The notes under the pieces: model-generated | Database searches by the model: none | What the model was told of the DNA's origin: nothing | The model's input: the letters and a program-made list of their open reading frames with translations, nothing else | Assembly (NCBI GenBank): GCA_023251915.1 | Contig: JAHEXW010000005.1 | Location: 23,947 to 87,946 of the forward strand | Length of the DNA stretch: 64,000 nucleotides | Direction of reading: 5' to 3' | Origin: Actinomycetes bacterium | GTDB taxonomy: Bacteria; Actinomycetota; JAHEXW01 | Shown: piece by piece, positions 17,374-26,208 of the stretch | Layout: the number at the start of each line of letters is the position of its first letter | Numbering within the stretch: position 1 is the stretch's first letter | Translations under genes and position numbers: made by a program

Positions 17374-17413
17374 AAAAAACCTAGATAAGCCATATGGTTT
17401 ATCTAGGTTTTTT
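17374..17413 (-). terminator. Rho-independent terminator distal to the tRNA-Gln-associated element
   Basis: AAAAAACCTAGATAAACCATATGGCTTATCTAGGTTTTTT on the minus strand. Confidence 0.75.
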
Positions 17414-17428
17414 GGCTGGGGCGGGAGG

Positions 17429-17574
17429 GCGTCGAACCGTCGGGCAGCCACCCAACAGTCTGCCCTCCTCAGAGGTGCAACCAAAGGTTTCCCCTCTGAT
17501 ATCTCCCCTTCCTTGGTCCCGTCTCAAGGTGAAGCCTCTCCCCCTTGAGAATCCCCCTCAGGTTCGACCCCTCG
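17429..17574 (-). ncRNA. tRNA-adjacent structured element, copy A
   Basis: Aligns to copy B at 19779-19925; same three hairpins with invariant loops, GGGAGAGGCTTC / GGAAACCTTTGGTTGC / ACWGTTGGGTGG; bounded by T-arm-like TCGAACC...GGTTCGA. Confidence 0.6.
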
Positions 17575-17633: not shown

Positions 17634-17708
17634 TGGCTGGGGCGGGAGGGCTCGAACCTCCAATCTCCAGATCCAGAATCTGGCGCCTTACCGATTTGGC
17701 CACGCCCC
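17634..17708 (-). tRNA. tRNA-Gln(CTG)
   Basis: GGGGCGTGGCC...CCAGATTCTGGATCTGG...GGAGGTTCGAGCCCTCCCGCCCCAGCCA; anticodon CTG, encoded CCA. Confidence 0.93.
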
Positions 17709-17725
17709 AATAATTAAGACAAAAA

Positions 17726-19639: not shown

Positions 19640-19716
19640 GGCGCATTCGTCTAGAGGCCTAGGACACCTGGTTCTCAGCCAGGAGATCAGGGGTTCGAAT
19701 CCCCTATGCGCTACCA
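19640..19716 (+). tRNA. tRNA-Glu(CTC)
   Basis: GGCGCATTCGTCTAGAGGCCTAGGACACCTGGTTCTCAGCCAGGAGATCAGGGGTTCGAATCCCCTATGCGCTACCA. Confidence 0.93.
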
Positions 19717-19771
19717 ATGACCCCGAGTGACATCAAATGTTTGGCCGATGTCAGTCGGGGTTATTTATTTA
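19694..19771 (+). repeat. 78-bp direct repeat, copy 1 (tRNA-Glu T-loop to CCA plus terminator)
   Basis: Identical to 19916-19993 except one base. Confidence 0.9.
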
Positions 19772-19778
19772 GGGCACA

Positions 19779-19925
19779 GGGGATTCGAACCGAGGGGGGC
19801 TTTCCAGCGGGGGGAGAGGCTTCCCCCGCTGTCTTCGTTAAGGAAGGGGGAACTCAAGGGGGAAACCTTTGGTTGCCCCTGTGAAACGGCCGGACAGTTG
19901 GGTGGCCGGCCGTTGTTCGATTCCC
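19779..19925 (+). ncRNA. tRNA-adjacent structured element, copy B
   Basis: Three hairpins (19805-19831, 19854-19884, 19886-19913) with loops shared with copy A and different but complementary stems. Confidence 0.6.
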
Positions 19926-19993
19926 CTATGCGCTACCAATGACCCCGAGTGACATCAAATGTTTGGCCGATGTCAGTCGGGGTTATTTATTTA
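19916..19993 (+). repeat. 78-bp direct repeat, copy 2
   Basis: TTCGATTCCCCTATGCGCTACCAATGACCCCGAGTGACATC...TTATTTATTTA duplicate of the tRNA-Glu 3' end. Confidence 0.9.
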
Positions 19994-20009
19994 AGGTCAA
20001 CACAATGCC

Positions 20010-25947: not shown

Positions 25948-26058
25948 GAGGTTGCTTCGTCGGCCAAAAACCGGCCTCCTCGCAATGACGCAATGCGTTA
26001 TATGTCGTACAGAATCGCTCTACGTCATTGCGAGCGAATGGAATGAGCGAAGCAACCT
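25948..26058. repeat. Head-to-head pair of GTCATTGCGAG-type palindromic repeats
   Basis: GAGGTTGCTTCGTCGGCC...CTCGCAATGACG ... ACGTCATTGCGAGCGAATGGAATGAGCGAAGCAACC. Confidence 0.75.
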
Positions 26059-26133
26059 ACGAGACTGGCGCAGGCCGGGAGTTCTCATCCTTCAATTCCA
26101 CTAAAAAAGGACCCACGAAGGGTCCATCTTTAG

Positions 26134-26208
26134 TGGAGCCGGCGGGGAGATTCGAACTCCCGGCCTGCGCATTACGAGTGCGCTGCTCTACCACTGAGCT
26201 ACACCGGC
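26134..26208 (-). tRNA. tRNA-Thr(CGT)
   Basis: GCCGGTGTAGCTCAGTGGTAGAGCAGCGCACTCGTAATGCGCAGGCCGGGAGTTCGAATCTCCCCGCCGGCTCCA. Confidence 0.93.

Follow-up and report, generated by a model that had tools for sequence, protein, structure and literature searches.

A mobile element with a folded core and target-matching arms behind tRNA genes of Actinomycetota

The window analyzed here, a 64,000-nt stretch of an Actinomycetes bacterium genome (contig JAHEXW010000005.1 of assembly GCA_023251915.1), carries two copies of a short repeated element, A and B, each with a transfer RNA (tRNA) gene directly upstream. This element is mobile, and its covariation is strand-specific, the tRNA-sense strand being the one that folds. 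It is probably a short non-coding and non-autonomous mobile element, with a core of about 120 nt, that targets the T-arm of tRNA genes and acts as a folded sense-strand nucleic acid. The family is undescribed, no known family having been found to fit, and its members look like a tRNA-targeting genetic parasite of a new kind. A first-pass annotation of the window, in which the tRNA context was absent, had favored a structured RNA over a simple mobile DNA element. The folded-strand part of this proposal was retained, whereas the opposition itself was a false alternative, because the element is also mobile.

Anatomy and folding of the element

Each copy consists of a core with three hairpins (HP1 to HP3) between a left and a right arm, both related to the upstream tRNA. 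Positions are given in window coordinates, copy B lying on the + strand and copy A on the - strand, and R1 is a covariance model built from ten copies.

Copy B
19640..19716, +, tRNA-Glu (CTC), intact target tRNA of the copy (ARAGORN; Rfam tRNA)
19693..19774, +, first copy of an 82-nt target duplication with T-loop, 3' acceptor, CCA and terminator (direct repeat D1)
19778..19791, +, left arm AGGGGATTCGAACC, exact reverse complement of the tRNA-Glu T-arm (inverted repeat I6)
19792..19913, +, core, running from GAGGGGG through HP1, AAGGAAGGGG, HP2 and HP3 (R1 match G000:C21:43738-43860)
19805..19831, +, HP1 (CAGCGGGGGGAG/AGG/CTTCCCCCGCTG)
19854..19884, +, HP2, with the inner pairing AACC/GGTT
19886..19913, +, HP3 (ACGGCCGG/CCGGCCGT around ACAGTTGGGTGG)
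19915..19996, +, right arm and second copy of the target duplication, with altered tRNA-Glu 3' end, CCA and terminator (D1; junction table)

Copy A
17634..17709, -, tRNA-Gln (CTG), target tRNA of the copy (ARAGORN)
17560..17571, -, left arm GGGGTCGAACCT, differing by one change from the reverse complement of the tRNA-Gln T-arm
17441..17559, -, core (R1 match G000:C21:41385-41505)
17522..17550, -, HP1
17469..17499, -, HP2
17442..17465, -, HP3
17411..17440, -, right arm GGTTCGAC + GCCCTCCCGCCCCAGCCA, in which the tRNA-Gln 3' end is repeated with one base inserted (direct repeat D2)

The three hairpins, with constant loops and stems that differ between the copies while remaining paired, had been described in the first-pass annotation, and every stem and loop quoted there was recovered in copies A (17442-17550) and B (19805-19913). 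The supposed HP1 loop required correction, as it is mostly paired (GGGGGAG/CTTCCCC) and just AGG is left unpaired. The HP2 loop shared by the two copies, GGAAACCTTTGGTTGC, is found at exactly two places in the window, for 0.04 occurrences expected, and GGGAGAGGCTTC also occurs twice, for 0.25 expected. The D1 repeats of copy B are 98% identical, with a spacing of 222.

Because two copies alone provide thin evidence of covariation, a larger set of 43 distinct HP1 and 40 distinct HP2 arm pairs, taken from up to 18 genomes, was used to test compensatory change again. Pairing of the arms was compared with that obtained after reshuffling their 3' partners (2000 shuffles), using arms anchored on the loops, since the stems were out of register in the MAFFT alignment (A3). 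HP1 was 96.2% paired against 74.0 +- 1.5% with reshuffled partners, and HP2 87.7% against 68.0 +- 1.5%. When a single copy per genome was kept, the four variable outer pairs of HP1 were still 93% paired against 50%. The earlier claim that stems change in a compensatory manner around conserved loops, as befits a function of the folded strand, thus extends to more copies and to more divergent genomes. The RNAalifold structure of R1 pairs HP2 differently; the model is usable for searching nonetheless.

The imperfect stem pairs comprised 49 G.T and 10 A.C pairs (p = 2.7e-7). Such an excess is unlike what is expected for duplex DNA and indicates that it is the tRNA-sense strand which folds. It also favors RNA as the most likely folded nucleic acid, single-stranded DNA of the same sense strand being the alternative. 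Both window copies are more stable than 200 dinucleotide shuffles (z of -4.8 and -3.2), and in the minimum-energy and centroid folds predicted for copy B the two arms pair with each other and enclose the three hairpins. The element is hence predicted to take on a cloverleaf-like shape, closed by the pairing of its arms.

Copies behind tRNA genes and evidence of mobility

The genome to which the window belongs (G000; 1.42 Mb, 92.6% complete) contains eight full copies. Each follows a different tRNA gene at a distance of 20-80 nt and in the same orientation, these genes being those of tRNA-Glu, Gln, Gly-CCC, Gly-TCC, His, Leu-TAG, Arg-ACG and Ala-CGC. The probability of such placement and orientation arising by chance is roughly 1e-23. 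When 399 genomes of the phylum were searched with R1, matches were obtained in 19 of them, and a tRNA was found directly upstream in 39 of the 52 copies gathered. The target tRNAs span at least 25 anticodon types. At two loci (L120 and L121), the copies lie behind tRNA-like 3' ends that have a group I intron upstream. Besides, one locus of genome G145 (L129, about 1200-1760) holds four copies in a tandem array away from tRNAs; these copies are joined by GGTTCGGACGCGAACC and the array lies inside an inverted repeat, GGGTGTAACAAAAG/CTTTTGTTACACCC.

The arms are specific to the tRNA behind which each copy lies. The left arm, immediately before the GAGGGGG of the core, matches, in reverse complement, the T-arm and variable loop of the upstream tRNA, as illustrated by GAACCCGCGACAT (Gly-TCC), GAACCCCCAACCAC (His) and GGGGATTCGAACCCCCGGCC (Ala). 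Over 39 copies, its longest match to its own tRNA averaged 11.8 nt against 6.8 nt with swapped tRNAs, the maximum of 300 swapping trials being 7.9. On the other side, after HP3, the sequence of the same tRNA resumes in the variable loop or the T-arm and continues through CCA. This match averaged 20.4 nt against 7.9 nt when swapped, and at least 12 nt of the own tRNA 3' end were present in 35 of the 39 copies. The right copy is slightly altered and often mismatched, and many right junctions show one extra base at the point of resumption, usually a pyrimidine (GGA-T-GGTTCG, GGTTCGA-C-GCCC).

Insertion is thus accompanied by a target-site duplication of variable length, which is illustrated by the second tRNA 3' end of these 35 copies and by the 82-nt repeat of copy B. 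The duplicated segment corresponds to the 3' part of the tRNA and its trailer, about 20-200 nt in all, and the intact tRNA stays upstream. A repeated tRNA 3' end is also what tyrosine recombinases leave behind, these integrases commonly using tRNA 3' ends as targets, and the copies might be the attachment sites of integrated islands whose interior was deleted. However, remnants of this kind would not share a covarying core of 120 nt across many genera, nor would each be expected to have a left arm that is the reverse complement of its particular tRNA, so that this origin is already disfavored and appears very improbable.

Mobility was established by comparing G000, tRNA by tRNA, with its sister species G001, the nearest named relative (GenBank 'Actinobacteria bacterium isolate GL140_3_metabat_86', JANXYU01). 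The Gly-TCC, His and Arg-ACG sites are filled in G000 and empty in G001, with the same tRNAs as neighbors. Arg-TCT is the converse case, as G000 retains just a remnant there (GAACCTCCAACCGAGGGG); Leu-TAG of G001 likewise bears a decayed remnant. Orthologous tRNAs without insertion in the sister species imply that the element moves. Alternatively, the copies could be a host RNA with a function at tRNA genes, either in the control of tRNA processing or as a decoy for enzymes recognizing the T-arm, the arms being maintained by selection. Strong structural conservation, arms matching the local tRNA and a co-oriented position behind tRNAs would all agree with such a role. It is nevertheless unlikely in view of the patchy presence of the element between sister species and between tRNAs, the target duplications, the decayed remnants at Arg-TCT and Leu-TAG, and the tandem array of L129, which has no tRNA.

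Putative insertion route and candidate enzymes

Templated left junctions were found at three sites. At the His site, which reads GGGTGAGAAACCCTTTAAT when empty and GGGTGAGAACCCCCAACCAC-GAGGGGG when filled, native sequence runs up to GAGAA and is followed by a copy of the tRNA complement and then by the core; at tRNA-His, native GAGAAACCC has become GAGAACCCCCAACCAC. At the Gly-CCC site of G001, GGCAGGTCTCG comes from the native end of the adjacent gene and is followed by AACCCG, which is the tRNA complement. The third site is Ala-CGC, where insertion took place next to an older inverted T-arm of a different element family. This anatomy suggests that a 3' end located downstream of the tRNA paired with tRNA sequence over a short homology, was extended on it and went on into the core. 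A possible route would begin with an enzyme supplied in trans that nicks both strands at GAACC/GGTTC-like sites. The 3' end of one strand would be joined to the element end beside the T-arm, and that of the other strand, lying further downstream, would pair through a short homology with the tRNA-complementary arm, copy a few tRNA bases and then continue into the core. Subsequent repair would duplicate the target segment. The arms would then act as an address, in a manner resembling the target-primed insertion of elements similar to short interspersed nuclear elements (SINEs). We entertain more tentatively the broader possibility of a new class of mobile RNA, cloverleaf-like, that re-programs its arms from each target tRNA gene and spreads by target-templated insertion among many tRNAs differing in anticodon, with relatives located behind or within the tRNA genes of DPANN archaea.

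Several observations weigh against a folded mobile element directed to the T-arm. The insertion steps were deduced from the anatomy of junctions, and the searches made revealed no enzyme linked to the element. The copies at L124, L128, L129 and L157 have no tRNA upstream. The left arm of copy B is non-native and the 5' boundary of the left arm differs among copies. Closure of the predicted fold is less clean in copy A than in copy B. Single-stranded DNA tolerates G.T pairs as well. Finally, reverse transcriptases (RVT_1) gave no match in the genomes G000, G001 and G002, and the DEDD transposase of IS110 was absent from G000 and G001. IscB (RRXRR) gave no match in these three genomes either, a weak negative since no control genome matched. 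RVT_1 is present in four of ten other carriers, whose assemblies are incomplete, and IS110 in 5 of 12 carriers. As candidate mobilizers, IscB, reverse transcriptase and IS110 had no linked gene in these searches.

These negative results bear on another explanation, in which the core would be the scaffold of a guide RNA (the omegaRNA of IscB/HEARO or the bridge RNA of IS110) and the arm a guide directed against tRNA genes. A constant scaffold whose variable end perfectly matches the neighboring target, next to a displaced right copy that is often mismatched, is reminiscent of such systems. However, neither HEARO nor other relevant Rfam families matched at E up to 10 at three element loci (L002, L004, L055) or at E up to 5 at seven more loci. 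IS110 was absent from G000 and G001, and RRXRR gave the weak negative stated above. A guide function is quite improbable.

The remaining candidate was the Y1 transposase. Y1_Tnp was present in 11 of 12 carriers and in 1 of 20 non-carriers (Fisher p = 1.1e-6), although this association may be phylogenetic because carriers and non-carriers are related within clades. G000 possesses one such gene, a RAYT (L172:1039-1554, within locus L172 905-1760 of C15). The hairpins could accordingly be sense-strand DNA of an element resembling repetitive extragenic palindromic (REP) sequences and moved by a Y1 (RAYT/HUH) enzyme, as HUH enzymes read folded single strands and the G.T pairs would be tolerated in DNA. 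On the other hand, the RAYT of G000 has GTAG-type REPs of its own on its flanks (TGTAG..GCCGGTCTTTAAGACCGGC, GCCGACCTAAAGGTTGGC..CTACAT), which differ from the element, no element match flanked the Y1 genes at the four Y1 loci scanned, and one carrier (G225) has no Y1. To our knowledge, Y1 insertion gives no long target duplication. Movement by Y1 is therefore rather unlikely, and RAYT was set aside as the mobilizer, being statistically associated with the element yet provided with REPs of its own in G000.

The preferred reading, a folded mobile element with target-derived arms, was also compared with known systems. Like REP/REPIN sequences and their RAYT, the elements are short, non-coding, palindromic and multi-copy, and G000 has one RAYT gene. 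They differ by the lack of a GTAG/CGTC tag with a single hairpin, by their three hairpins, by their tRNA-specific arms and target duplication, and by the REPs proper to that RAYT. With miniature inverted-repeat transposable elements (MITEs) they share a short size, non-autonomy and a duplicated target; instead of fixed terminal inverted repeats, however, they have inverted arms derived from the target, their duplication is long and of variable length, and their covariation is strand-specific. Eukaryotic SINEs and target-primed retroposons are likewise short structured RNA-like elements with variable target duplications that need enzymes in trans, as would the present element, but no reverse transcriptase was found in G000-G002, the target is the T-arm of tRNA genes and the arms are copied from it. 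The HEARO/IscB omegaRNA and the IS110 bridge RNA are also structured RNAs with a target-matching segment; here, the segments that match the target are placed at the two ends, beyond the conserved core, and neither a covariance-model match nor a linked protein was detected. Islands integrated by tyrosine integrases also use and duplicate the tRNA 3' end, whereas the element is a folded core with an inverted left arm and no integrase gene.

Searches of other collections gave no counterpart. Exact motif patterns had no match in IMG/VR viral contigs, nor did blastn searches of phages, and blastn against plasmids returned just two 17% matches at E 0.5, which were short and spurious. An Rfam search of the window at gathering scores found tRNAs only, and a limited literature search yielded no description of the element.

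Related motifs and implications for tRNA gene neighborhoods

Other repeats were observed near tRNA genes. A second family (GAGGAGCTTTTC...GAAAAGTCCGAGCA) lies behind the tRNAs Val-CAC (L060), Val-TAC (L065), Ile (L068) and Leu-CAA (L073) in G000, and behind Ala-CGC at L013; on its left are a hairpin and two T-arm copies, the one before the hairpin inverted and the one after it direct, and on its right is the tRNA 3' end. A third family (TTCTTCGC or TCCTTCGC ... GCGAAGAA) begins right after the CCA of several tRNAs in G001 and G002 (L084, L092, L109, L115). In the window itself, at 26050-26135 on the - strand, an inverted 17-nt tRNA copy (GAACTCCCGGCCTGCGC) stands 49 nt behind tRNA-Thr(CGT) and is followed by a repeat of the GTCATTGCGAGGAGG type, possibly a decayed or different element.

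In DPANN archaea, short motifs that may be related occur behind tRNA-Ala and tRNA-Pro and inside or beside interrupted tRNA genes, with E-values of about 0.003-0.05 per genome. At L141 and L142, such motifs (GGGGAAACC..CCCC) lie within an interrupted tRNA gene and beside a duplicated tRNA 5' end. The motif AAGGAAGGGG..GGGGAAACC occurs in other phyla as well, at unlinked loci (L049, L052, L053, L054, L058). The form AAGGAARGGGG...GGGGAAACCNTTGGTTTCCCC is intergenic in unrelated phyla, at the same five loci and at L056, with no tRNA; at L056 it is located just upstream of a long open reading frame. The motif at L051, within a coding region, is probably due to chance. No protein linking these loci of other phyla to an element was found.

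The family accounts for an otherwise puzzling set of repeats behind tRNA genes, and it appears to represent a class of prokaryotic mobile elements made almost solely of a folded RNA-like core, with end arms that are rewritten for each target tRNA gene. The filled and empty sites of G000 and G001 make the chemistry of insertion directly testable. If the arms do serve as an address, they would provide a new way of programming insertion at conserved and essential genes, and the mobilizing enzyme would represent a new system for site-directed insertion.
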